64,000 nucleotides of DNA, from NCBI RefSeq assembly GCF_947490415.1, contig NZ_CANLGX010000004.1, forward strand, positions 434,001 to 498,000, read 5' to 3'. Each line of letters starts with the position of its first letter. Position 1 is the first letter of the stretch. Made by a program: the position numbers and the translations under genes. The stretch comes from an uncultured Eudoraea sp. Lineage in GTDB: Bacteria > Bacteroidota > Bacteroidia > Flavobacteriales > Flavobacteriaceae. Below are positions 37,081 through 54,837 of the stretch, piece after piece. A model generated the notes under the pieces. It saw only the letters and a list, made by a program, of their open reading frames with translations, searched no databases and was not told the origin of the DNA.

Positions 37081-37500
37081 TTAGTCCGGTCTTCGACTCT
37101 TTAAAATTCCGCCGGCATAATTGAATATCTCCGATTTTAGGATTTGAAACTGCTGAAAACAATTTGCTACATTGGCTTTTAGCTTCTCATGTTCCACATG
37201 AATATCTTCATCACATTTGCTGTTTCTGCATTCAATGGACCCCCCCAGATTATTCTCATGTTGAACCATAAGATTTTGTACATTAGTCTTATCAATTTTA
37301 ATAAGCTTCAGACGCTCGAGAAAGTCTTGCAAACGCTCAAACAAATTGGACGTATTGGGCTCAAATACATAGGAGTGAAGAAGTTGTTCAATAAATACTA
37401 ATTCATCGTTCATTAAGGAAAAGGAAGATTTCCATTTCTGTGCATCTAAATGTAATTTTTGAATTGTATCCAGTTTTTGATCTTCCGTTTTATTTTCCAT
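37081..37500 (-). CDS. Helical small protein, paralog family member 2
   Basis: A 139-residue, mostly helical protein related to 36464-36907 and 54388-54837. It has WKSSFSLMNDELVFIEQLLHSY at 23-44, then HENNL at about 86-90 and HEKLKANV at about 108-115, followed by an IFNYAGG helix. Three extra cysteines near 97-113 are not shared with the paralogs. It stands alone. Its promoter has an ideal Crp/Fnr-like site at 37551-37562 and a -7 box TAGCTTTA at exactly the common 23-base spacing. Function unknown. Confidence 0.7.
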   Translation of the reverse strand: MENKTEDQKLDTIQKLHLDAQKWKSSFSLMNDELVFIEQLLHSYVFEPNTSNLFERLQDFLERLKLIKIDKTNVQNLMVQHENNLGGSIECRNSKCDEDIHVEHEKLKANVANCFQQFQILKSEIFNYAGGILKSRRPD

Positions 37501-37519: not shown

Positions 37520-37562
37520 TAAAGCTACTTCTGTGCAAAAGTATGAGCAATGATAAAAATCA
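37520..37562 (-). promoter_or_regulatory. Crp/Fnr-like composite promoter (site C)
   Basis: TGATTTTTATCA (minus strand, 37551-37562), 23 bases, then TAGCTTTA (37520-37527). The site ends 50 bases before the start codon of the second helical protein. Confidence 0.7.
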
Positions 37563-37570
37563 TGTGGTTA

Positions 37571-38935
37571 TCAAAAAATAAGTTCCACCGTTTCAAATAT
37601 TTCAGGAATATGAACATTCCATTTATATACATCTGTAATTTTAATTTTAAATTCTTGTAAGGCTTCCTGCTCTCCATGAATCAGAAAAACACGTTCCGGA
37701 ATATTTTTAATAGAACCCATCCAATCCAGCAACTCTTTTTGATCTGCATGGGCTGATAAACTTTCTTCATGATGAATACTGGCTTTCACCGAAAAGTATT
37801 TTCCAAAGATCTTAAGTTCATGAGCCCCTTCCAAAAGCGCTCTTCCCCTTGTTCCTTCGGCCATGTAACCAACCAATAAAATATTAGTCTTAGGATTATC
37901 TACCAATTGTTGTAAATAAGTGAGAATTCTTCCACCCGTGACCATTCCGCTTCCGGCAATAACGATTTTTGGTCTGGGATCGTCTATGGTCTCCCATGTT
38001 TGTCTGTAGGAATCAACAATATTTACATGGGCACACATTGCCTTATATTCTTTTGGAGATAGCTTATGCCAATTTGGGAAACGTTCGAATATGGAAAGTA
38101 CATTGCTGCCCATAGGGCTATCAATAAAGACAGGAATATTTGGTATTTTATTCTTCCTGTAAAGCTTCCAGAATAAATACATCAGTGACTGTAAACGTTC
38201 TACGGCAAAAGAAGGAATGAGGAGGTTTCCTCCTTCATAAAGTGTTTTATTAACGAGGGCGACCAGTCTATCCTCGACACTATCTTTCGGGTGTAATTTA
38301 TTTCCATAGGTACTTTCAACAAAAAGAAAATCTGCCCACTCAGGTTTAACCGGTGGATCTAACAAAATATCATTTGGCCTTCCAACATCTCCGGAAAAAA
38401 CAAAAAGCTTACCTGAAATTTCTATTTCGATAAAAGTAGAGCCAATTATATGTCCGTTAAATCTGAATCTATACCGGATATTTTCAGAAAGTGGTGTCCA
38501 TTGGTTTATTTCTTCAGGTCTAAATAGCACTATTGCATTTTCTGCATCTTGTATGCTATACAATGGTAAAGCCGGGCTGTGCTTACTATACTTCTCTTTA
38601 TTTGCTATTTCTGCTTCTTCTTCATTTATCTTAGCACTATCCAGCAATATTATTCTGGTTATTGCCAGTGTAGGGGCGGTTCCGATAATTTTACCTTTAA
38701 ATCCCGCCTTTACCAATCTGGGTAAATAACCCGTATGATCTAAATGACCATGTGTTAATAAAATAACATCTATTAAGTCGACCGAAACAGGCAATGGTTC
38801 CCAATTTGATTTTCTAAGGTCCTTCCTCCCCTGGAACATCCCACAATCTATGAGAATGTTTTTCTCATCTGTTTCAAGATAAAATTTAGATCCTGTTACC
38901 GTACCCGCAGCCCCTAAAAAATGTACTTTAACCAT
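37571..38935 (-). CDS. MBL-fold beta-CASP RNA-processing nuclease
   Basis: The metallo-beta-lactamase motif THGHLDHTGY (61-70) supplies the zinc ligands His62, His64, Asp66 and His67. The beta-CASP part includes the PSFAVERLQ, DSPMG and GSGMVTGGR segments, and the C-terminal SAHADQKEL provides a further His. This is the archaeal/bacterial CPSF-Ysh1-like group, RNases that cut or trim RNA in the cytoplasm. It lies 18 bases downstream of the ATP-cone nuclease gene and is last in an operon whose promoter is site D (40313-40355). Members of this family often sit next to universal stress genes in Bacteroidota. Confidence 0.88.
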   Translation of the reverse strand: MVKVHFLGAAGTVTGSKFYLETDEKNILIDCGMFQGRKDLRKSNWEPLPVSVDLIDVILLTHGHLDHTGYLPRLVKAGFKGKIIGTAPTLAITRIILLDSAKINEEEAEIANKEKYSKHSPALPLYSIQDAENAIVLFRPEEINQWTPLSENIRYRFRFNGHIIGSTFIEIEISGKLFVFSGDVGRPNDILLDPPVKPEWADFLFVESTYGNKLHPKDSVEDRLVALVNKTLYEGGNLLIPSFAVERLQSLMYLFWKLYRKNKIPNIPVFIDSPMGSNVLSIFERFPNWHKLSPKEYKAMCAHVNIVDSYRQTWETIDDPRPKIVIAGSGMVTGGRILTYLQQLVDNPKTNILLVGYMAEGTRGRALLEGAHELKIFGKYFSVKASIHHEESLSAHADQKELLDWMGSIKNIPERVFLIHGEQEALQEFKIKITDVYKWNVHIPEIFETVELIF

Positions 38936-40312: not shown

Positions 40313-40355
40313 TAAAACTAAATCCAAACCATCATTTGTCCTAAGATAGTGATCA
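40313..40355 (-). promoter_or_regulatory. Crp/Fnr-like composite promoter (site D), one mismatch
   Basis: TGATCACTATCT (minus strand, 40344-40355) misses the final A of the consensus. After exactly 23 bases TAGTTTTA (40313-40320) is a good -7 box. It overlaps the end of the upstream usp gene by 3 bases and faces the eRF1-like/nuclease/RNase operon. Confidence 0.5.
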
Positions 40356-41201
40356 GTCGGTATACGGGAGAATAAGAAAAGGTATATTGATATTAAAACT
40401 GACTTTCTCAAGAACCGGTTCACGGGTTAATTTCTCTAAAAAACCGTGTTGGTAATGAATCATTGTCAGCATATCGATACCCAATTCGTCAATAAAATCT
40501 GTTATTGCTCTGGTTTTATTGGCAAAATCTGGCATCCAGTGAATAGAATGCCTTATATCGCCTAAATACTCTCTAAGAATATATAAATTGGATTTCTGCA
40601 CCGGGCTTAGTCTTTCTTCTTCATTTATATGAACGATACGTACAGACGAATCACAAGTCGAAGCAAATGTCAGAAGAGGTTGTAACAATTTAGCATTGTA
40701 ATTCTTCTTGTAGTCTGTTGCAAAAGCAATCTCTTTAGGTAAAACAAATTCTTTTTCCCCAGGTATGGTGAGTATTGGACAATCCTTAATAGCGTTAATG
40801 GATTTGATTACATTACTAGCTAAAAAAATGGATTTGGTTCCCGTCTTCCCTTTATTACCCATCACAATAAGATCTGCATTCGTCTCTTTAATTGCCTGCT
40901 GCAGAGCATCAATTAAATTTTCATTTTTTGAATGAATACCAAAATGATGATTACTATTCCCTGTATCAAGATTAATTCTATGTAAAAAGGAATATAAACC
41001 CTCCATAGACTCTTCTCCCAGTTGTTGTAATAAACTTAAATTACGGCCCGCAGCCTGGCAATTGCTTTTTAGCGGGGTTTGCTCGGTATAAGCATTGAGA
41101 ATATGGAATGAACAATTGTAATTTTTAAACAATTGCGTGGCGTAAAAAAGTGCGTTATAGGCATTGTTGGAAAAATCTGTGGCAACAAGAATATTTTTCA
41201 T
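40353..41201 (-). CDS. Tandem-domain universal stress protein
   Basis: Two UspA folds in one chain (1-140 and 145-282). The first opens ILVATDFSNNAYNAL and has the nucleotide loop GNKGKTGTKSIFLASN, where the usual G-S is A-S. The second domain starts KEIAFATDY and has lost the loop, as in the paralogs. Usp proteins bind ATP or related ligands and help survival in starvation and hypoxia. It is the third gene of a three-usp operon (42923 to 40353; gaps of 18 bases), driven by site E. The C-terminus INIPFLILP is shared by the set. Confidence 0.88.
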   Translation of the reverse strand: MKNILVATDFSNNAYNALFYATQLFKNYNCSFHILNAYTEQTPLKSNCQAAGRNLSLLQQLGEESMEGLYSFLHRINLDTGNSNHHFGIHSKNENLIDALQQAIKETNADLIVMGNKGKTGTKSIFLASNVIKSINAIKDCPILTIPGEKEFVLPKEIAFATDYKKNYNAKLLQPLLTFASTCDSSVRIVHINEEERLSPVQKSNLYILREYLGDIRHSIHWMPDFANKTRAITDFIDELGIDMLTMIHYQHGFLEKLTREPVLEKVSFNINIPFLILPYTD

Positions 41202-41219
41202 CTAAATTTCAGAGTTACA

Positions 41220-42053
41220 TTAAGGAATAACCATAAAAGGGATGCTAACATGAAACCCTATTTTCTTGATAACCGGCTCTATAAAAAGACTTTCCAAAAA
41301 GGTGTGTTTGTTCTGGATCATTGCCAACATGTTCATTTTGTTCTTTAGTTGGAAATTATTTATTCCTGTTATGATTTCCTGATTAGGGAGGTCATGGAAT
41401 TTATGAGGGATTTTTTCTAATATCTTTTCCAGTTTGGCCTTATTTTTCAATTGAAATTCGGTAAGATCATAGCCGCTTGAAATATGAATAACTTCAATAC
41501 TGGAATTGTGTATTTTGGCTAAATAAAGAAGACCTTCTAATTGTTTTTCACTGTACTCAACTTCATAGTCCGTTGGAAAAAGTATTTCTTTAGGTGTTTC
41601 ATATTCAAAATCCGCAGGAATTGCAATCACAGGGCAGGTAGCTTTTTTAATAACATGCACTGTATGTGTACCGAGGAAAATTTCTTTTGCACCTGTTGCT
41701 CCCTGGGTACCCATAATAACCAAATCAGCTTCTTCACTGGCAACCATTGCAGCCACCTCATCAACAAGGATATTGAAAGCAGAGTGTGTTATTATAGTGT
41801 GTTTTGGATTCTTAAACTCCTTTTCAAGTTTTTTTTGAAGTTCTTCAAGTTGATTTATGGACTCTGATTGGTAAATATCTCCCAGACCGATTTGACCGGG
41901 GCTGTGTAACAAATATTCTGTTTGGTAAATAGCTGGCGTATACGTATTCATAAGATAAAAAGTTGCCTTTTCATCCTTTAAGAGGTTCAGAGCATAAGAG
42001 ATAGCATTATATGCATTATAGGAAAAATCGGTAGGAAGAATTATTTTTTTCAT
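41220..42053 (-). CDS. Tandem-domain universal stress protein
   Basis: The first Usp domain starts ILPTDFSYNAYNAI and has a full ATP loop, GTQGATGAKEIFLGTHT (G-x2-G-x9-G-T). The second domain starts KEILFPTDYEVE and ends VSIPFMVIP without the loop. It is the middle gene of the three-usp operon. The central domain boundary lies at about residue 150. A role in ATP-dependent stress tolerance is known for the family; the ligand and partner here are unknown. Confidence 0.9.
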   Translation of the reverse strand: MKKIILPTDFSYNAYNAISYALNLLKDEKATFYLMNTYTPAIYQTEYLLHSPGQIGLGDIYQSESINQLEELQKKLEKEFKNPKHTIITHSAFNILVDEVAAMVASEEADLVIMGTQGATGAKEIFLGTHTVHVIKKATCPVIAIPADFEYETPKEILFPTDYEVEYSEKQLEGLLYLAKIHNSSIEVIHISSGYDLTEFQLKNKAKLEKILEKIPHKFHDLPNQEIITGINNFQLKNKMNMLAMIQNKHTFLESLFIEPVIKKIGFHVSIPFMVIP

Positions 42054-42071
42054 CGGTACATATTTTAAATG

Positions 42072-42923
42072 TTAACGGGACAGATTTTGTAAAACCAAAA
42101 ATGGTATTTTTATGTGTAAACCTATTTTTTCAATAGTGGATTGATGCAACATTAGCTCAAGATGTGAATATCTGGAATTGACCATTACCAGCAGGTCTAT
42201 TTCTTTATGTACAATATATTTTGTGATGGCAATGGTTTTATCCTTCCCTTCTGTTGTTTCAAAAAACAAGTTGGCCTTGTACAAACATTCTTTTAAAAAT
42301 CGCATGTTATCTTCCTGCCGAAGCGATAGCTTCTTATTAGCATCAATATAAAGCATATGAATGGATGACCTAAAGGAACCTGTGAGTTCACACAATAGTT
42401 TTAATTCTCTCCTCTTATGAGGCACTAAATAATCTGAGGGGAACAATATTTCTTTTGGTGGATGGTATTTGTAATTTTCGGGAATTGCCAGTACAGGACA
42501 TTGTACGTATTTCAAAACCTGAATTGTCTTACTGCCAAAGGTTATTGTTCTGTCATTAGTTTCACCCCTTGTCCCCATTATCACAATATCCGCATTCTCC
42601 ATATTTATAAGATCATTGATCTCATCGGTAAGTGTTCCAAAGGCCGAAATTGCCTTAAACTTATGCCTTGGGTTAGGCGAATACTCAAATATGTCTTTTA
42701 AAATTTTTGCTAGTTCTTTTTCGGATTTCTTATAGGTTACCTCCTTTAGCTCATCTAACTTACTTCGTATAACCACCCGGTCTTGCTGGTATACCTCATC
42801 TGCATATGCGTGTAGAATATAAAAGTCGCATCTTGTGTATTTGAATATTTGACAGGCATATTTGAGCGCATTAAATGCATTCTTAGAAAAATCTGTGGGC
42901 ACTACAACTTTCCTCATATCCAA
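42072..42923 (-). CDS. Tandem-domain universal stress protein
   Basis: This is the first gene of the three-usp operon. The first domain starts VVPTDFSKNAFNAL with loop GTRGETNDRTITFGSKT. The loop has Asn-Asp where the paralogs have Thr-Gly or Ser-Gly, so ATP binding is less certain. The second domain starts KEILFPSDYL and ends KIPFLVLQ. It is 50 bases from the Crp/Fnr-like site at 42974-42985, with a good -7 box (TATTTTTA) at the common spacing. That site also serves the divergent thioredoxin gene. Confidence 0.88.
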   Translation of the reverse strand: MDMRKVVVPTDFSKNAFNALKYACQIFKYTRCDFYILHAYADEVYQQDRVVIRSKLDELKEVTYKKSEKELAKILKDIFEYSPNPRHKFKAISAFGTLTDEINDLINMENADIVIMGTRGETNDRTITFGSKTIQVLKYVQCPVLAIPENYKYHPPKEILFPSDYLVPHKRRELKLLCELTGSFRSSIHMLYIDANKKLSLRQEDNMRFLKECLYKANLFFETTEGKDKTIAITKYIVHKEIDLLVMVNSRYSHLELMLHQSTIEKIGLHIKIPFLVLQNLSR

Positions 42924-43431: not shown

Positions 43432-44271
43432 TCATTCGTGCAATACCAAAAATGGGATATCCGTATGGTAACTAATTTCTTCTACGGCAGGCCTAAAGAG
43501 AATTCGCTGAAAAAAGTTAAGATTTTTAGCCACCATGGCCACAAGATCTATATCTCTGCTTTCAACAAAACACTGAACGGAAGTTTCCAATTTGGAACCG
43601 GTTAAGGAATGGAAACTATGGTCAATTCCTCTCAGGTAATCATGTAAAAAATCTTTATTACGCAATTGTTCTTCACTCAACATTTCACCTTTTTTAGAAA
43701 TATGAACAACTCTTAATACAGAGTTATTCATTGTTGCCATCTCAATTAGAGTGTCCAGGACTTTAATATCATAGGCAATGTGAAAATCTGTCGGGAAGGC
43801 TATTTCCTTTGGTCTTTTATAGAGGCTATTTTCAGGTACTGCCAGTAAGGGACATTTTACTTTAGTAATCACATCGCCTGTATTGCTGCCCATTGCAGCC
43901 TTTTTAAGTCCTGATGAACCTTTAGTACCCATGATAATAAGGTCAATCTTTTTGTCTTCAACTTCCCTTTTAATACCATCCACAAAAAAGTCATACTTTG
44001 CTATCGGAACAAAGGAATGTAAATCATTTTTGTGATGCTCTCCAATATACTTTAAAAGTTTTTTAAGGTCTTTTTTGCTCTCAGTTAAGACTGTTTCCTT
44101 AAGAAGTACAGAGGTTCCCTTAACTGAAGTCCCGGCACCTGAATATGGTGGTATCGGGTTGATGTGCATAATGTGAAAAATACACTTGGTTTTTTTAAAT
44201 AATTCAAGCCCGTAATTAATTGCATTACGTGAATTTTTGGAAAAATCTGTCGGGATTAAAATACGTTGCAT
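43432..44271 (-). CDS. Tandem-domain universal stress protein
   Basis: Two Usp domains; the first starts ILIPTDFSKNSRNAI and has loop GTKGSSGLKKAAMGSNTGD, a full ATP-type signature. The second begins KEIAFPTDFHI and ends TDIPFLVLH. It is a single gene with its own Crp/Fnr-like promoter (TGATTCTAATCA and a perfect -7 box TAATTTTG). The response regulator gene lies just upstream on the same strand (ending at 44365) but a separate promoter is in the gap. The thioredoxin gene converges on it. Confidence 0.88.
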   Translation of the reverse strand: MQRILIPTDFSKNSRNAINYGLELFKKTKCIFHIMHINPIPPYSGAGTSVKGTSVLLKETVLTESKKDLKKLLKYIGEHHKNDLHSFVPIAKYDFFVDGIKREVEDKKIDLIIMGTKGSSGLKKAAMGSNTGDVITKVKCPLLAVPENSLYKRPKEIAFPTDFHIAYDIKVLDTLIEMATMNNSVLRVVHISKKGEMLSEEQLRNKDFLHDYLRGIDHSFHSLTGSKLETSVQCFVESRDIDLVAMVAKNLNFFQRILFRPAVEEISYHTDIPFLVLHE

Positions 44272-44294: not shown

Positions 44295-44337
44295 CAAAAT
44301 TACAATCACCAAAAGAACCCTAAAATGATTAGAATCA
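44295..44337 (-). promoter_or_regulatory. Crp/Fnr-like composite promoter (site F)
   Basis: TGATTCTAATCA (minus strand, 44326-44337) then 23 bases and TAATTTTG (44295-44302), a perfect -7 box. It ends 54 bases before the start codon of the usp gene at 44271. This is one of the two best examples, with site I. Confidence 0.75.
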
Positions 44338-44364
44338 TGTTCGCCACCTTTTGGAATTAAAAAT

Positions 44365-45423
44365 TTAATAAGGTATCCTTTGTAACCGATCCATATCTAA
44401 AATTTTAATATCTCTATCCTTAATCTCAATTATACCCTCTTTCTTGAAGGTAGATAAGGTTCTTATCAGGGTTTCTGTAGCCATTCCGGCAACGCTTGCA
44501 AGGTCACTCCTTAAAACATGAATATTTCCGGCTTCATCTTCCTGCAACTTTTCGGCAAATTTAAGTAAGGTAGACGCAGTTTTTTTTCGCACGGAACCGT
44601 ATGCCATTTCTAACAACTGCTCTTTGATCTGTACAAGGTTTTCGGATAAAAGTTGTAATAACTCCATTACCAATTCCCCATTTTGCTCCAAAATCACTTT
44701 TAATTGATCTTTGTGTAAACCAATTAGGACAGAATCCTCCATGGCAGTTGCGTATTCCTGGTACGGTATATTCTTGGTGAAACTGGTGAATCCAAAAAAA
44801 TCATCTGCTTTGTAAATTCCTGTGATCAACTCCTTCCCCTGTTCATCCAGTTTATGAGTTTTGACGTTCCCCTTTATCACCAAATATACTAAATTTGAGT
44901 TGTCGCCTTCCCTGTAAATTGAATCCCCCAAATGAAACCTGAACTCCTCACCATTGTCATCAATAAAATTCTTCAGCTGATGAATACTCTTAACCCGGGC
45001 TTCACTTGACAAATCATCGTATAACTTTTCTTGTTGCGCTTCTTTTAGAATGTTGATCTTGGCTATTCTGCTTTCAATAGCACCAATAAGTTCTGCTTCT
45101 TCAAATGGTTTAGTCAGGTAGTCATCCGCACCCATATCCATACCATGTCTAACATCCTTTCGTTCTGTTTTAGCAGAAAGAAATATAAAGGGAATTGCCT
45201 TGGTCTTATTGTACTTAGACAAAGCATCTAAAACGCCATATCCATCTAACTTTGGCATCATTATATCGCAAATGATAATGTCTGGGTGACTAGTTTTGGC
45301 AACCAATACTCCCTTTTCGCCGTCAGGAGCGGTAAGCACTTTGTAATTTGCTAATTCCAATAATTCGGCTGTATTCTCCCTTAAAGCAGTATCATCCTCA
45401 ATTAATAAAACCTTTTTGATCAT
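44365..45423 (-). CDS. Response regulator with Crp/Fnr output (REC-cNMP-HTH)
   Basis: A receiver domain (1-120) with phospho-acceptor Asp53 (IIICDIMMP) and Lys105 is fused to a cyclic-nucleotide-type beta barrel (about 150-255) and a Crp-type winged helix (about 270-345). The recognition helix reads TETLIRTLSTFKKEGII and keeps the Glu and Arg that contact DNA in FNR (ETxxxR-like). The barrel lacks the cAMP-binding Arg-Ser of CRP, and FNR-type N-terminal cysteines are absent, so phosphorylation is the likely input. It is 52 bases downstream of the LOV kinase gene. It is the best candidate to bind the TGAY-N4-RTCA sites across the island. Confidence 0.9.
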   Translation of the reverse strand: MIKKVLLIEDDTALRENTAELLELANYKVLTAPDGEKGVLVAKTSHPDIIICDIMMPKLDGYGVLDALSKYNKTKAIPFIFLSAKTERKDVRHGMDMGADDYLTKPFEEAELIGAIESRIAKINILKEAQQEKLYDDLSSEARVKSIHQLKNFIDDNGEEFRFHLGDSIYREGDNSNLVYLVIKGNVKTHKLDEQGKELITGIYKADDFFGFTSFTKNIPYQEYATAMEDSVLIGLHKDQLKVILEQNGELVMELLQLLSENLVQIKEQLLEMAYGSVRKKTASTLLKFAEKLQEDEAGNIHVLRSDLASVAGMATETLIRTLSTFKKEGIIEIKDRDIKILDMDRLQRIPY

Positions 45424-45475: not shown

Positions 45476-47371
45476 CTAGTCTTCTTTGCGATTGTAATAA
45501 ATAGGCAGCACTACCGAGAATGTACTCCCCTTGTTTTCCAAACTTTTAAAGCTAATTTTCCCTCCCAGGTTCTCAACATGCGATTTTACAATATTTAGTC
45601 CTATGCCGGTACCTTGAGTCAACAGTACGTTGTCTGCCCTATAGTAAAGGTTAAATATATGCTTTTGGTCCTCTTTTGGAATACCTATACCCTTGTCAAT
45701 GACATGGAAGCAAATATCATCTCGATTAATATCAATCTGCAAATCTATTTCAGATTCTTCAGGAGAATACTTAATGGCGTTATGCAACAAATTGGTTAAC
45801 ACCAATGAAATAATTTTCTCATCCTGGTGTATTGTAAGATCCTCTATATTAATAGGGTAATTAATTTTTTGACCTGTTTTTAATAACATATTCGCATTGT
45901 AAATCACTTCATTAACAACTTTACTAAGCGAAAAATCATTAAGTCTATAAACTTCTTTCCCTTTCTCCATTCGCTCAATAGATAAAAAATCATTCAATAT
46001 TCCGGTAAGATGATGTACACCGGTTTTTATTGAATTTAAATGTTTATCCCTCATATCCTGATCTTCGGTAGTTTTATATTTACCAACCAGGGTAGCCGAA
46101 GTAAGAATAGTGCTTAAAGGAGTTTTAAACTCGTGAGAAACCATCGAAAGGAATTTGGTCTTTAGTTTGTTCAGTTCTTGTTCTTTGACCAAAGCTGCCT
46201 TGAGTTCCTTGGTTCTTAATGCAACTGTTTTTTCGAGTTTTTGAGTATAATTTTTTCGTTCAGAAATATCCAGGACAATGGCTACTATCAATATCTTATT
46301 ACCAAGAATGGAGGATTGCAAATGAATTTCAGCAGGATATGTTGTTCCATCCTTGCGCCTAAACTGTGTTTCAAATGTAATTTTCTTTTTACTACTCAAC
46401 TGTAAGGGATCTAGAATTTCCCTGAACCGATCTTCAGTAATACCCACAATAAGATCCGTTATTGTTAATCTTTTAATTTCTCTAATGGTATATCCGGTAT
46501 TCTTCTGCGCACCATAATTTACGTGTGTAAACCTTAGTGTTACGACATCAAAAACATAAATTTCATTAAGTGATTCATCAAAAATATTTAAGAAATGTCT
46601 TATCTCTTCTTCGGCTTTTACACGGTTGGTTACATCATTTTGAATTCCTACAAAATGTGTGATCTTACCTTCCTGATTTAGGATTGGATTAATAGAGACT
46701 TCATTCCAGAATAAGGTGCCGTCTTTTTTATAATTCCTCACCTGCACCTGGCACCTTTTACCCGCTTCTATGGCCTTGTGCATTATTTTAACGCCTCTTT
46801 GGTCATTATCATCTTTCTGGAGGAACCTGCAATTTCTATTCAGGACTTCAGATTCTGAATACCCCGTAAGTTTCCTAAATGCCTTGTTCACATATATTAT
46901 AGGATGATCCTCTTTTAATGCATCTGAAATAACAATACCGTTTTGGGTAGCCTCTAAAGCCTCACTTTTTATATTTAAGTTTTCTTCAACCTCCTTTCTT
47001 TCCGACAAATCATAGACCAGTGCCAGAACATAGGTTCTTTCATAAATTGTAAAGGGATTAAACTTTACGGTCAAAGGAAATTCCTCGCCAGATTTTTTAC
47101 GTCCCTGCACACAACGCCCACCAGCCATTGAATCTTTCTTTGTGCGCTTGTAGTATTTTTTTAGATGCTCTTTATGGACATTTTTATACTTATCAGGAAT
47201 TATTTCAGAAAGTGGCTTCCCTAAAAGTTCATCATGGGAAAAATCAAAGAGACGTGCTGCTTTTTTGTTTATAGAGACAATTAGCTGCTCCTGATTTACC
47301 ACTAATATTCCCTCCGATACAGCTTCGGAAAGTAGATGGAATATATTAATATTTTTATCAAAAACATGCAT
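45476..47371 (-). CDS. PAS-LOV-PAS sensor histidine kinase (predicted blue-light sensor)
   Basis: Order: PAS (about 10-125), LOV domain (about 138-250), a third PAS (about 258-375), a coiled segment, HisKA with His413 (FLSMVSHEFKTPLS) and HATPase (NAIKYSPEES, DKGIGIP, GTGIGLNIVKSHVE). The LOV signature is NRNCRFLQ with the adduct Cys181. Other flavin contacts are present: Gln185, Asn223 and Asn228 (FWNEVSINP) and Gln244 (VGIQND). The match to YtvA-type LOV is close. No membrane segments are seen, so it is cytoplasmic. Cognate to the REC-Crp/Fnr gene next to it. It lies 48 bases after the usp gene at 47420 and may be in its operon. Confidence 0.92.
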   Translation of the reverse strand: MHVFDKNINIFHLLSEAVSEGILVVNQEQLIVSINKKAARLFDFSHDELLGKPLSEIIPDKYKNVHKEHLKKYYKRTKKDSMAGGRCVQGRKKSGEEFPLTVKFNPFTIYERTYVLALVYDLSERKEVEENLNIKSEALEATQNGIVISDALKEDHPIIYVNKAFRKLTGYSESEVLNRNCRFLQKDDNDQRGVKIMHKAIEAGKRCQVQVRNYKKDGTLFWNEVSINPILNQEGKITHFVGIQNDVTNRVKAEEEIRHFLNIFDESLNEIYVFDVVTLRFTHVNYGAQKNTGYTIREIKRLTITDLIVGITEDRFREILDPLQLSSKKKITFETQFRRKDGTTYPAEIHLQSSILGNKILIVAIVLDISERKNYTQKLEKTVALRTKELKAALVKEQELNKLKTKFLSMVSHEFKTPLSTILTSATLVGKYKTTEDQDMRDKHLNSIKTGVHHLTGILNDFLSIERMEKGKEVYRLNDFSLSKVVNEVIYNANMLLKTGQKINYPINIEDLTIHQDEKIISLVLTNLLHNAIKYSPEESEIDLQIDINRDDICFHVIDKGIGIPKEDQKHIFNLYYRADNVLLTQGTGIGLNIVKSHVENLGGKISFKSLENKGSTFSVVLPIYYNRKED

Positions 47372-47419: not shown

Positions 47420-48262
47420 CTAGACCTTAAAAGTAATCACCGGTAAATTTGCGTGATTCACCACATCTTCACCAATGCTGCCTTTAAAAAAATGCGCTAT
47501 TCCGCTTCTTCCATGGGTAGGAATAGCGATTAAATCTGCTTGTATATCATTCGCATGGTTAAATATGCCTCTTTCAATTGAATAATCGGAGACATAGATC
47601 ATTTCAGTATCTGAAGGAACCGGACCATTATGAGCTACTTTAAGGAAAAAGTCTGCTTTCTTTTTTATCTCCCCGGAACTCAAGAATTCTTCATTAGGTA
47701 AATTTACATATACCAGATGAAGCTTAAGGTCCCATTTGGCAAAAAGAGCCCTTGCAGTATGGTATGCTTTTATACTCTCTACCCGAAGATCACAAGCAAA
47801 AACAACTAACTTAGGAGCGAATAAAGGAGAAGGTTCTTTTATGACCAATACCGGAATATCAGAAGAGCGCACTACCTTTTCCGTATTTGAACCAACAAAA
47901 ATCTCACTAACCCCGCTTGCCCCATGTGAGCCCATAATTATCAAGTCAATGTTGTTTTCCTTGGCTACCTGATTAATCTCACTGAAGATCTTATAGTTTT
48001 GAACCATTTCGGTAATCTTAACACCTTTTAAAAATGGCTTATCTAAAAAAGTTTCGTACCGCTTCCTGGCCAATTTCATATAAAAATGAGCCTCTGCGGC
48101 TTCATCAGATTCACTTTTGGTTAAGTAGGCTTCAGACAGACCCATCATATGAAGTACAATAATCTCTGCACTAAAATCCTTTGCCAGTTTTGCCGCAACT
48201 TCAAGCGCATATCCTGCATGTTCCGAAAAATCTACCGGGACTAATATTTTTTTCATAGTCAT
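47420..48262 (-). CDS. Tandem-domain universal stress protein
   Basis: The first domain opens ILVPVDFSEHAGYALE and has an orthodox ATP loop, GSHGASGVSEIFVGSNTEK. The second domain has a second complete loop-like end, PTHGRSGIAHFFKGSIGED, so unlike the paralogs both halves look competent. It differs from the others at the C-terminus (ANLPVITFKV). It lies 18 bases after the hibernation factor gene and 48 bases before the LOV kinase, so the likely operon is hpf-usp-HK-RR. Confidence 0.9.
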   Translation of the reverse strand: MTMKKILVPVDFSEHAGYALEVAAKLAKDFSAEIIVLHMMGLSEAYLTKSESDEAAEAHFYMKLARKRYETFLDKPFLKGVKITEMVQNYKIFSEINQVAKENNIDLIIMGSHGASGVSEIFVGSNTEKVVRSSDIPVLVIKEPSPLFAPKLVVFACDLRVESIKAYHTARALFAKWDLKLHLVYVNLPNEEFLSSGEIKKKADFFLKVAHNGPVPSDTEMIYVSDYSIERGIFNHANDIQADLIAIPTHGRSGIAHFFKGSIGEDVVNHANLPVITFKV

Positions 48263-48280: not shown

Positions 48281-48580
48281 TCAATACTTTTTAAAGATTT
48301 CTTTTCTCTTTTTGAGCTGGTTTTCCAATTCTTTTATTGTAGTGGCCGCGGCCTTTTCAAAATTATCCTGATTAGATTTAGCAAATAATCTCGGGCCGGG
48401 TGCACTTAATCGTATTTCGCATATTTTACCTGAACCAGAGGGGTCATTTTCTAATTTAAAAAAGACATCCGCTTTGATGATCCAATCATATTTATTTGCC
48501 AGTTTTTCTAATTTTGAAGTTACAATAGCACTCATAGAATCACTCGTTGGCATTTGAACATATTGAATATTTATTGTCAT
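48281..48580 (-). CDS. hpf: Ribosome hibernation promoting factor (short HPF/RaiA)
   Basis: A 99-residue HPF/S30Ae-family protein. It has a beta strand start MTINIQYVQMPTSD, the amphipathic SKLEKLANKYDWIIKADVFFKLE segment and the C-terminal helix of basic residues (QLKKRKEIFKKY). It lacks the long dimerisation tail, so it is the short form that parks ribosomes in the cytoplasm in starvation. ATG 48580 is chosen over an upstream frame start at 48619 because the shorter form is the family length. The Crp/Fnr-like site at 48636-48647 lies 55 bases upstream. First gene of the hpf-usp-HK-RR series. Confidence 0.88.
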   Translation of the reverse strand: MTINIQYVQMPTSDSMSAIVTSKLEKLANKYDWIIKADVFFKLENDPSGSGKICEIRLSAPGPRLFAKSNQDNFEKAAATTIKELENQLKKRKEIFKKY

Positions 48581-48604
48581 AATTATACTATTTAGAGTTT
48601 GTAA

Positions 48605-48647
48605 TAAAGATCGTACCATGCACCATGGTAAACTATGACATTTATCA
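48605..48647 (-). promoter_or_regulatory. Crp/Fnr-like composite promoter (site G)
   Basis: TGATAAATGTCA (minus strand, 48636-48647), 23 bases, then GATCTTTA (48605-48612), a -7 box without the first T. It faces hpf and, by operon, the kinase and regulator genes. Confidence 0.65.
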
Positions 48648-48740
48648 TTGTTGATAGTTGTCTAGCTATAATAATTACCAAATGCTATCCTCTAAATTAG
48701 AGATACTAATTAACCTGACCAAAAACAAAGCGGTAGTAGA

Positions 48741-49433: not shown

Positions 49434-49472
49434 GGTGTGTTTTTCTGACCAGGCGGGTAACAGTTGCTACAA

Positions 49473-49515
49473 TGATCAAAGTCATTTGTGTTAATTAACA
49501 ATGCACGTAGTTTTG
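49473..49515 (+). promoter_or_regulatory. Crp/Fnr-like composite promoter (site I)
   Basis: TGATCAAAGTCA at 49473-49484, 23 bases, then TAGTTTTG at 49508-49515, a perfect -7 box. The predicted leader before the LytTR gene is about 75 bases. Confidence 0.72.
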
Positions 49516-49594
49516 TTTTTTTAACAGATAAGCATCAGAGATCTTAGAACTATTTCGAGCACTGTTACAATCATCTTTGTTAATTGGTATTGTT

Positions 49595-50299
49595 ATGAGA
49601 AATTTACCCTTGAAGACATTAGTTGTAGAAAATTCAAAAGTGCACTGCAAAATCATAGCCGGGATGGTGAAAAATCATAATGATCTGAATTTGGTAGCTG
49701 CATGCAGTAATGCCATAGACGCCAATAGAATCATTAAAAACCATAACATAGATTTAATTCTTCTTGATATTGAAATGCCTTTTATTAATGGTTTCGATCT
49801 TCTCGAGGCTTTGGATCAGAAAATACAGGTGATAATAATATCCGGTAATTCAAATAATGCCCTAAAAGCATTTGATTATGGCGTCAGAGATTTTCTGTTA
49901 AAACCTTTAAATAGTGATCGTTTTGACAATGCAATACGAAAAGTGGTAACCAATAACAAGCGAAATGAAATTGAAGAAGACAAGGAATTTTTGATGGTGC
50001 GGAGTCATTTGAAAAATAAAAAGGTTAGTCTAAAAGAAATTAAATGGGTGGAGGCCTTTGGCGATTACGTAAAAATAATCACAGACAAAGAAAAAGTAAT
50101 TGCTCTGAGTACAATGAAATCAATCTCCGACAAGTTACCGAATGACAGATTTCTTAGGATTCATAGATCATATATTGTAAATTTAAACAAGATAGAAAAA
50201 TATGGCTGTACAAGTGTGGAGATAGATGATCATCAAATACCCATGAGTAAAAAGCAAAAACCCAAACTTGAATTTATTTTGGAAAATTTTGATAGTTAA
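49595..50299 (+). CDS. LytTR-type response regulator (second)
   Basis: The receiver domain has LKTLVVENSKVHCKI at its start and the phospho-acceptor Asp in LILLDIEMP (about residue 54 from the ATG). The acidic pair is altered: VENS where DD or ED is usual. The LytTR domain follows with IKWVEAFGDYVKI and FLRIHRSYIVNLNKIEKY. No kinase gene lies beside it. ATG 49595 is preferred to a TTG at 49577. The ABC exporter genes follow directly. I infer one operon under site I; the regulator may respond to another kinase. Confidence 0.85.
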   Translation: MRNLPLKTLVVENSKVHCKIIAGMVKNHNDLNLVAACSNAIDANRIIKNHNIDLILLDIEMPFINGFDLLEALDQKIQVIIISGNSNNALKAFDYGVRDFLLKPLNSDRFDNAIRKVVTNNKRNEIEEDKEFLMVRSHLKNKKVSLKEIKWVEAFGDYVKIITDKEKVIALSTMKSISDKLPNDRFLRIHRSYIVNLNKIEKYGCTSVEIDDHQIPMSKKQKPKLEFILENFDS

Positions 50300-53406: not shown

Positions 53407-54243
53407 TTAGGGATTAAAGCAAAGTATCGGAATAGTGACTAAGGTCTCCATTTTTTTCACAATATCTTTATTAAAAATAGCAGCAAAGAGACCCTTATTT
53501 TCTCTTTCCAACATACCTAATATATCTGCATTCTCATCTTTAATATGCATTCTTAATCCCTGTTCAATACTATTAGCCAGTACCATGTGAAAACTTATTT
53601 TTTTGTACTGCACCTGAACTTCCAATAGTTCTTTAAACCATTCCATTTGTTGCATGGCTGCATATTCTTCCATTGTAGGGATATGAACCACTTCTATTTC
53701 GGCTTCGTAATATTCTGCTATCGCAGACAATTTTTTTATTGCAATAATATCAGAAGATTCAAAATCACTGGCATAAACAATTTTATTTAACTTTTTGTAA
53801 CTATAATGGGGAGGAATTATTAGTAATGGACACAGTTTCTTATCTATTAATTTATTAGCAATATTCCCGCTTAAGAAACCTCTGGCAGAGTGTTCACTTT
53901 TCATTCCTATGACTAGCAAATCAATCTTATCTTTATTTATTCGATCAATAATTCCTTTGCTTATTGAAGCATTTTGGGCAACTTCACAAATTAGTTGATT
54001 TTTGCTAAGATTTTGGTCAAGGTTTTTTATGCAATAGTCTTCCAGCATTTCTTTTTGCTCGATCATTGATAAATTATGTAATTGTTCAGACGACCTAATA
54101 CTAGATGTTCTTACGGGTGGAACATCATATATGTGAAATACAATCAGTTTGGCATTTAAAGTATCGCTGAGATTCTTTGCATAATTTAATGTTGAGATCG
54201 AATTTTTGGTACAATCCGTAGCATAGAGAATAGTGTCCATCAC
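53407..54243 (-). CDS. Tandem-domain universal stress protein, degenerate ATP loop
   Basis: Two Usp domains (about 1-140 and 145-278). The first starts ILYATDCTKNSISTLNYAKNL. Its loop reads GMKSEHSARGFLSGNIANK, lacking the second glycine of G-x2-G, so ATP binding is doubtful. The second domain starts NKIVYASDF and ends VTIPILCFN. It is the sixth usp gene in the window and is divergent from the third helical protein, with two Crp/Fnr-like sites in the gap. Its own site is 54294-54305. Confidence 0.85.
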   Translation of the reverse strand: MMDTILYATDCTKNSISTLNYAKNLSDTLNAKLIVFHIYDVPPVRTSSIRSSEQLHNLSMIEQKEMLEDYCIKNLDQNLSKNQLICEVAQNASISKGIIDRINKDKIDLLVIGMKSEHSARGFLSGNIANKLIDKKLCPLLIIPPHYSYKKLNKIVYASDFESSDIIAIKKLSAIAEYYEAEIEVVHIPTMEEYAAMQQMEWFKELLEVQVQYKKISFHMVLANSIEQGLRMHIKDENADILGMLERENKGLFAAIFNKDIVKKMETLVTIPILCFNP

Positions 54244-54305: not shown

Positions 54306-54318
54306 CAAAAGCTTCACA

Positions 54319-54361
54319 TGACTTATATCATAAAAAATAGCCTTTAACTGAACTACTTTTA
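54319..54361 (+). promoter_or_regulatory. Crp/Fnr-like composite promoter (site K)
   Basis: TGACTTATATCA at 54319-54330, 23 bases, then TACTTTTA at 54354-54361. It serves the third helical protein gene. It lies 25 bases from site J, which faces the other way. Confidence 0.7.
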
Positions 54362-54387: not shown

Positions 54388-54837
54388 ATGGATAACAACA
54401 ATAAATCAACTCAGGAAAATACTTTTGAAGCGGTAAACTGGCAAGAACTTTATATCCTTACCGATCATTGGAAGTCAGATCTGAACTTCTATAAAGATGA
54501 CCTCAGGTTTTTACATCATTTGATAGAGAAATATATTATTTGGATTACAAAAGACGACAACCTTAACTTGGTACAAGAAATAAAGAAAAATCTTTTTGAG
54601 ATTCGGAATGAAGGTATTGACTTAATGAAGGAGGTAATCTCACACCAGAGCAATTTGGGACTTATGGTAGAAAATCCGGTTCAGAGTTCAAACCCACAAT
54701 TTGTGAAAGATCATGAAGCCCTGGAAGATAAAATTTCAAAATTCGTCAAATCGTTCAGATCCAATCGAAAAGAAGTATTTAAAATTACAGAATACATCAT
54801 AGACAGCGAGAAGTTACCAAATATTCTTAAATCCTAA
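54388..54837 (+). CDS. Helical small protein, paralog family member 3
   Basis: A 149-residue helical protein. WKSDLNFYKDDLRFLHHLIEKY at about 28-49 matches the WxSxLxFxxDExxFLxxLxxxY pattern of the two paralogs at 36-37 kb. Later HQSNL and HEALEDKI follow in the places of HENKL and HRELTSSM. It is divergent from a usp gene and under site K. Three paralogs at both ends of the stress island and under the same promoter type suggest a common role. No known domain is recognised. Confidence 0.7.
   Translation: MDNNNKSTQENTFEAVNWQELYILTDHWKSDLNFYKDDLRFLHHLIEKYIIWITKDDNLNLVQEIKKNLFEIRNEGIDLMKEVISHQSNLGLMVENPVQSSNPQFVKDHEALEDKISKFVKSFRSNRKEVFKITEYIIDSEKLPNILKS

Follow-up and report, generated by a model that had tools for sequence, protein, structure and literature searches.

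A candidate oxygen-sensing histidine kinase with an optional LOV domain in a stress island of Flavobacteriaceae

Introduction

In the FixL-FixJ-FixK system, a FixL-type PAS domain sits in a histidine kinase and FixK provides the Crp/Fnr-type output, FixJ and FixK being separate proteins. In mycobacteria, DosS, which senses with a haem GAF domain, and DosR, which is not a Crp protein, place universal stress protein (USP), ferredoxin and PfkB-like genes under low-oxygen control. LOV proteins are known to feed stress responses as well: this is the role of LovK in Caulobacter, and YtvA and LovK act through SigB or PhyR; to our knowledge, neither of these two nor LOVHK carries a FixL-type PAS. LOVHK of Brucella, a LOV-PAS-histidine kinase by the titles of its structure entries, feeds the stress response through PhyR (PMC4438053), and YtvA of B. 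subtilis triggers the general stress response (PMC6798134). Light and oxygen are integrated by YHF, an engineered kinase that joins a LOV domain to a haem PAS (PMC6798134). Here, we describe a sensor histidine kinase gene encoded in a 64,000-nucleotide stretch of an uncultured Eudoraea sp. (contig NZ_CANLGX010000004.1, positions 434,001 to 498,000; hereafter the window), within an island of stress genes and next to a regulator that fuses a receiver (REC) domain to a Crp-type DNA-binding domain (REC-Crp).

We consider it probable that this gene encodes a two-input histidine kinase, an oxygen sensor for a low-oxygen or dormancy regulon with an optional blue-light input. We read it as a two-component system that pairs a REC-Crp regulator with a kinase built on a FixL-type PAS core, LOV being optional, and as a natural counterpart of YHF. 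It appears to share the coiled-coil logic of YHF and of YF1, in which the LOV domain of YtvA is combined with FixL parts; YHF, however, is man-made, whereas the window kinase, known from its sequence, comprises a haem-like PAS (PAS1), a LOV domain, a third PAS (PAS3) and a SHEFKTP-box kinase, with REC-Crp as predicted partner. Like the Fix system, it combines a FixL-type PAS with output through a Crp/Fnr-type DNA-binding domain, but here receiver and Crp domain lie in one protein, LOV has been added, and the predicted targets are USP genes and the gene of the ribosome hibernation factor HPF. The predicted REC-Crp partner also sets it apart from LOVHK, LovK and YtvA. The candidate sites precede USP, PfkB, ferredoxin/POR and HPF genes, among others, which recalls the DosR regulon, but as an analogy only; the window system has a haem-like PAS and a Crp-type regulator. 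In titles and abstract openings of the open-licence literature, which make for a weak negative, we found no description of a natural kinase with LOV and haem PAS, of LOV in these bacteria, or of such a stress operon.

Results

PAS1 is constant and LOV optional among the orthologues

Pfam assigns to the kinase three PAS stretches, HisKA and HATPase_c; PAS3 resembles known structures weakly, its best match being YtvA. To compare domain layouts, 121 loci were reduced to 103 distinct orthologues by dropping identical duplicates and kinases matching the window kinase domain more weakly than E = 1e-55. The set comprises 57 PAS1-kinases, 14 PAS1-PAS3-kinases, 31 PAS1-LOV-PAS3-kinases like that of the window, and a single LOV-PAS3-kinase. 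PAS1 is present in 102 of the 103, LOV in 32, and 71 are without LOV. These layouts show that PAS1 is the constant input and LOV an optional module at a fixed boundary.

Matches at E ≤ 1e-60 were found in 71 of the 149 genomes of the family search, the window's own counted, and a scan of named genomes placed relatives in Eudoraea, Pricia, Flagellimonas, Arenibacter, Maribacter, Zhouia, Psychroflexus, Gillisia and others; from these names, we take the family bearing the kinase to be Flavobacteriaceae. The orthologues include those of Eudoraea adriatica DSM 19308 (L056), of Maribacter flavus (L054), which is without LOV, and of Zhouia amylolytica (L057), a PAS1-kinase. Across the phylum, the kinase was detected at E ≤ 1e-75 in 10 of 296 genomes, including the window's own, all from this same family, whose share of the 296 the output does not state. 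Outside Flavobacteriaceae, the named-genome scan with the whole protein matched the kinase end only, and no other search for such tandems was made outside the phylum. On a quick-method tree of 100 of the 103 kinases, the LOV state changes at least six times, gain and loss being indistinguishable.

Two orthologues depart from these layouts in their own way. In the LOV-PAS3-kinase (L023), stop codons part a fragment resembling the kinase N-terminus, in the preceding open reading frame (ORF), from an ORF beginning at LOV. L035 is an 809-aa variant in which additional sequence separates PAS3 from the kinase domain.

PAS1 resembles the haem PAS domains of FixL and DosP

When residues 1-130 were searched against the PDB with phmmer, 17 matches were obtained at E ≤ 0.1. 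FixL fills the first seven places (top 1d06, 7.5e-10), followed by 10jx and then by the haem PAS of DosP/EcDOS; the three non-haem matches, two CitA-type entries (1.5e-4) and YtvA (0.06), rank among or below the DosP entries. A profile built from 20 relatives strengthened these matches to 1.1e-20 for FixL and 1.1e-18 for DosP. The best 14 of its 31 matches are all haem PAS, counting 10jx, which is titled 'multi-sensor kinase' in this search and haem-binding PAS in the Foldseek listing, and YtvA comes right after them as the best non-haem match (2e-8). A structural model of PAS1 (mean pLDDT 76.5) agrees: among the best 50 of 1286 Foldseek matches, the top 32 are all FixL, EcDOS/DosP or the haem PAS FG214.

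His66, located inside the predicted helix 60-75, aligns with the FixL histidine that we take to be the proximal haem ligand, and occurs in 97 of the 102 PAS1-bearing orthologues. Arg86 is found at the distal Arg position of FixL and DosP, presumably Arg220 and Arg97 in their respective numbering. Haem binding in the FixL/DosP cluster is determined primarily by a His in the F helix (PMC10468136), and the predicted helix of PAS1 holds one in His66. On sequence and model, haem binding by PAS1 is therefore a strong prediction.

The LOV domain retains its flavin and adduct residues

Searched in full length against the PDB, the kinase finds its best matches over about residues 132-260, and among the best 60 of 227 the top ones are LOV proteins or LOV chimeras wherever the entry name is informative. 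Over this region, E values reach 1.7e-37 for 8a3u, 7.8e-36 for 7r5n, 1.5e-35 for YF1 (4gcz) and 2.5e-29 for YtvA (2pr5), with phototropins at 2.5e-27 to 1.2e-23. The NCBIfam YtvA model matches residues 136-262 (5e-49) with the first 129 of its 243 positions, and its 167 bits fall short of the 250 set as cut-off for a whole protein. At the level of sequence, the likeness to solved LOV proteins is far above chance. All seven residues that we take to be flavin contacts or adduct-forming are present, namely N180, C181, R182, Q185, N213, N223 and Q244, with Cys181 in NRNCRFLQ, Asn213 and Asn223 in NYKKDGTLFWNEVSINP, and Gln244 in VGIQND. Among the 32 LOV-bearing orthologues, the seven are complete in 26 and the adduct Cys is kept in 31; this Cys and the Gln that contacts flavin N5 are described for LOV domains in PMC6798134. 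Since 31 of 32 keep the Cys, blue-light input through LOV is likely. The domain is nonetheless worn in a few orthologues: Ile replaces the adduct Cys in L021, His the N5-contact Gln in L010 and L022, and Tyr or His the residue equivalent to Gln185 in L020, L023 and L050.

Much of what an initial annotation, made from the letters of the window, had claimed for the kinase is borne out. The ORF was correctly read in residues and coordinates, its 631 codons running without interruption; residues 138-250 are indeed LOV, as the PDB matches at about 1e-35 and the seven residues confirm; the three motifs, NCRFLQ with Cys181, NYKKDGTLFWNEVSINP, and VGIQND with its flavin-contact Asn and Gln, are as it gave them; and the two further PAS domains said to flank LOV both appear in Pfam, ahead of HisKA and HATPase_c. 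Its sensor picture was right on the LOV input but incomplete, missing PAS1 as a FixL/DosP-like conserved input and the optional nature of LOV. That a light input to a stress regulon would be unexpected was overstated, YtvA and LOVHK being precedents.

One other match was returned when the genome was searched with the LOV domain, a 177-aa LOV-like PAS ORF (L239, G000:C1:502986-503276; 24% identity, 7e-9). It keeps NYRRDG and has KTPRIFQ where LOV has NCRFLQ, and is thus without the adduct Cys.

Linker lengths follow a heptad register

Distances between the domains are largely fixed, although the counts come from related sequences and are hence not independent. Measured between the Asp residues of the PAS end motifs, the spacing from PAS1 to LOV is 125 residues and from LOV to PAS3 122 residues, each in 31/31 kinases; in kinases without LOV, PAS1 to PAS3 is likewise 122 (14/14). 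From PAS3 to the phospho-acceptor His413, the spacing is 45 in 30/31 LOV kinases and in all 14 PAS1-PAS3 kinases. In PAS1-kinases, PAS1 lies 73 (n = 25), 80 (n = 25) or 45 (n = 3) residues from the phospho-His, so that the distance equals 3 modulo 7 in 53 of the 56 measured; L194 gave no mapping, L231 is a 1089-aa hybrid, and L060 and L063 are read as small mapping slips, both of which would be 80. The 73 and 80 classes differ by exactly one heptad. A heptad rule for linkers has been described for YF1 (PMC6798134), and the fit of these spacings to it speaks for coupling of the domains by coiled coils in fixed heptad register. A PAS of haem type, judged by likeness, thus stands in tandem with LOV in one kinase, with linkers in register, in 31 of the 103 orthologues.

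The adjacent REC-Crp regulator and a candidate binding site

By script, the REC-Crp gene lies directly downstream of the kinase gene on the same strand in 100/103 loci, and coordinates also put it adjacent in the remaining three (L035, L211, L216). The FixK model matches the regulator at 7.3e-21, below its cut-off. A palindrome, TGAYN4RTCA, is found in the gap between the regulator and USP genes in 88 of 94 loci (the 6 of 100 without a readable gap being left out), against an average of 1.26 and no more than 4 across 50 shuffles. Its exact form ATGAN6TCAT is found in 50/94 gaps, the reversed pattern AGTAN6TACT in 0/94, and 36 of 51 exact sites in the gap end 50-59 bp before the start codon. 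Within a subset of 19 loci (L038-L056), exact sites were also present ahead of HPF in 11/13 upstream regions and of ORF p48741 in 6/7, but ahead of the kinase in only 6/18; none stood before TRX (0/11), USP42 (0/11) or the regulator itself (0/13). The likely HPF start is codon 14, judging from where the family model begins, which would place the palindrome of the window 54 bp upstream.

A search for all short palindromes in 19 loci, which found ATGAN6TCAT in 63/157 island and 34/106 other upstream regions (shuffle means 0.75 and 0.6), was set aside. The other genes form no clean negative set, and the analysis was therefore moved to the single regulator-to-USP gap.

Genome-wide, there are 72 exact ATGAYN4RTCAT sites versus 13 for the reversed pattern. 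Five lie in the window, three of them in Table 1 and two, at 49472 and 54318, outside the island core; 50 others were fetched and 17 were not listed. Domains were scanned in 30 of the 52 candidate downstream ORFs (7 of the 52 in the window). The scanned ORFs include USPs, a 2-oxoacid:ferredoxin oxidoreductase, a ferredoxin, a 4Fe-4S dicluster protein, PfkB and a pyruvate-kinase-domain protein, together with FtsH, a LonB-like AAA protein, YtxH, a multihaem cytochrome, a pyridine-nucleotide oxidoreductase and a metallo-beta-lactamase/rhodanese protein. The remaining ones give no indication of low oxygen: an MlaE permease, an L,D-transpeptidase, a FadL-type porin, an HxlR regulator, an amine-oxidase-type flavoprotein, hydrolases, repeat proteins and unknowns. 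Overall, the candidate regulon leans towards low-oxygen and low-energy physiology. Elsewhere in the genome, one palindrome (L135) separates a PfkB-type kinase gene from a 129-aa receiver-domain ORF.

The neighbourhood of the kinase agrees with the initial annotation, which spoke of a universal-stress/hibernation regulon and a Crp/Fnr-type regulator: USPs lie on both sides, HPF/YfiA is present, and the domain scan resolves the regulator into REC, cNMP-binding and HTH_Crp_2 domains. The annotation's link to the stress genes gains support from the Crp-type site beside the regulator gene, but the genome encodes a second Crp/Fnr protein with a similar recognition helix.

Proposed signalling path and alternative explanations

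Domain identities, their conservation, the operon, the linker lengths and the sites are directly established; on this basis we infer the haem and flavin cofactors, the phosphotransfer and the binding of the sites by the regulator. PAS1 would bind haem via His66 and, like FixL and DosP, signal the presence of oxygen or of some other ligand of the haem, whose counterpart in LOV would be a bound flavin forming the Cys181 adduct under blue light. The two inputs would then travel along the coiled-coil linkers, in fixed heptad register and via PAS3, to His413, from which the phosphoryl group would pass to the adjacent REC-Crp regulator. The regulator, in turn, would recognise ATGAYN4RTCAT-like sites located some 55 bp ahead of start codons and control USP, HPF and low-oxygen or energy genes. 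The oxygen sensor would form the core of this system, with LOV an optional module adjusting the response to light; by analogy with FixL, the kinase is most likely on in low oxygen.

Several observations weigh against this path, both at its target and at its sensor end. An exact site in the regulator-to-USP gap is common with LOV kinases (25/29), but is found with only 22/51 PAS1-kinases and 3/14 PAS1-PAS3-kinases. Of the 50 genomic sites retrieved from beyond the window, 11 fall within ORFs, and another 5, although intergenic, have no ORF start in reach. One of the five Crp/Fnr proteins of the genome (L175, G000:C6:144087-144662) shares the ATE...IR recognition-helix residues with the regulator and, for this reason, may own some of the sites, not all of which need belong to REC-Crp. 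The palindrome reaches at least twice the control in 36/74 genomes with the regulator (scored at E ≤ 1e-40), but also in 18/75 without it, and a same-genus genome, G089, has the regulator yet shows little enrichment (25 vs 21). At the sensor end, the full-length model (pTM 0.31) gives no usable domain arrangement, and the multi-domain matches of a fold search with it all exceed an rmsd of 10. Arg86 is kept in 63/71 orthologues without LOV but in only 14/31 LOV kinases, and His66 is lost in 4/31 (L017, L020, L022, L049), so that some LOV kinases may no longer sense oxygen through haem. A plain Fisher test on the Arg86 loss gives p = 7e-6, whereas a tree-aware pair test, with 4 independent pairs on starred branches, gives a median p of 0.5 and cannot reach significance; the trend is not significant once relatedness is considered, and we treat it as a lead only. 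Within the FixL/DosP cluster, about 40% of members are without the His, and an Fe-S cluster is associated with some members instead (PMC10468136).

The target-end observations raise the question of whether kinase and regulator work as proposed while the USP and HPF palindromes are sites of L175, in which case the light/oxygen kinase would not control the island. The similar recognition helix, the palindrome enrichment in some genomes lacking the regulator and its near absence in G089 would all fit, as would the gene's surroundings, since we read L175 as adjoining a USP-like ORF and an ORF resembling a heavy-metal P-type ATPase. However, a TGAYN4RTCA site and a USP gene follow the regulator gene in 88/94 loci, and twofold enrichment is commoner with the regulator than without (Mann-Whitney on palindrome/control ratios, p = 3.6e-4, not corrected for relatedness). 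We regard ownership by L175 as unlikely. The protein also has a CxxC near its N-terminus.

Alternatively, the protein could be an oxygen or redox kinase whose LOV domain acts as a flavin redox sensor or as a marginally used light sensor. LOV flavins are chemically reducible and may sense redox (PMC6798134), and LOV is absent from 71/103 relatives and worn in a few, to the point of Cys to Ile in L021; a pure redox sensor, however, would not need the adduct Cys, present in 31/32, nor all seven residues, complete in 26/32, which makes this quite improbable. Equally doubtful is a plain blue-light kinase, in which a haem-free PAS1 would serve structurally, by forming dimers, and leave LOV as the sole input: replacement of Arg86 in 17/31 and of His66 in 4/31 LOV kinases would suit it, but PAS1 is found in 102/103 orthologues, 71 of these without LOV, His66 is kept in 97/102, and the structures closest to PAS1 by sequence and fold are haem PAS.

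Starting from the two-input kinase that we favour, we tentatively propose, as possible but short of probable, that a FixL-type kinase of a Flavobacteriaceae dormancy regulon gains or loses LOV between its PAS domains, always in the same register, and that its oxygen-contact residues decay in some lineages, the input drifting from oxygen to light. Light with oxygen would then report 'surface, daytime', and darkness with anoxia would call for dormancy. If the two-input reading is true, a natural kinase would read blue light and oxygen together, like the designed YHF proteins, and its close relatives with and without LOV would provide a ready comparative series. Tandem-PAS signal integration and evolutionary swaps of input domains would become directly testable, and the ribosome hibernation and universal-stress genes of marine Flavobacteriaceae would be tied to oxygen and light.

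Features of the island

Table 1 Positions, within the window, of the kinase and its domains, the regulator, and neighbouring genes and palindromes
Feature	Position	Strand	Basis or remark
Sensor histidine kinase, PAS1-LOV-PAS3-HisKA-HATPase_c	45476..47371	-	Uninterrupted ORF, 631 aa
PAS1, FixL/DosP-type, predicted haem oxygen sensor, residues about 10-125	46997..47344	-	phmmer, profile, Foldseek
His66 codon, aligned to FixL histidine	47174..47176	-	Kept in 97/102 PAS1-bearing orthologues
Arg86 codon, at the presumed FixL Arg220 / DosP Arg97 position	47114..47116	-	Alignment
LOV domain, residues 138-250	46622..46960	-	Pfam PAS stretch, PDB and NCBIfam matches
Cys181 codon, predicted flavin-adduct cysteine	46829..46831	-	Motif and alignment
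PAS3, residues 260-378	46238..46594	-	Pfam; weak structure matches
HisKA, residues 404-471, phospho-acceptor His413 in SHEFKTP	45959..46162	-	Pfam
HATPase_c, residues 517-624	45500..45823	-	Pfam
REC + cNMP-binding + HTH_Crp_2 response regulator, predicted partner	44365..45423	-	Pfam, conserved adjacency
Universal stress protein, first predicted target	43432..44271	-	Pfam
Universal stress protein, two Usp stretches, immediately upstream of kinase	47420..48262	-	Pfam
Three further USP genes of the island	40353..42923	-	Pfam
Ribosome hibernation factor HPF/YfiA	48281..48619	-	Family model
Palindrome ATGATTAGAATCAT	44325..44338	.	Between regulator and USP gene, 54 bp before USP start codon
Palindrome ATGACATTTATCAT	48635..48648	.	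Upstream of HPF
Palindrome ATGATAAAAATCAT	37550..37563	.	50 bp before ORF 37081-37500

The two exact palindromes outside the island core lie at 49472-49485, preceding ORF 49577-50299, which we read as a LytTR-like regulator, and at 54318-54331, between a USP gene (53407-54243) and ORF 54388-54837. The stress island also contains, at 37571-38935 on the minus strand, a beta-CASP/RMMBL metallo-beta-lactamase RNase with sub-cut-off matches to the archaeal aCPSF1 and type VII Cas14 models. Several Eudoraea-like genomes retain this RNase in their islands.
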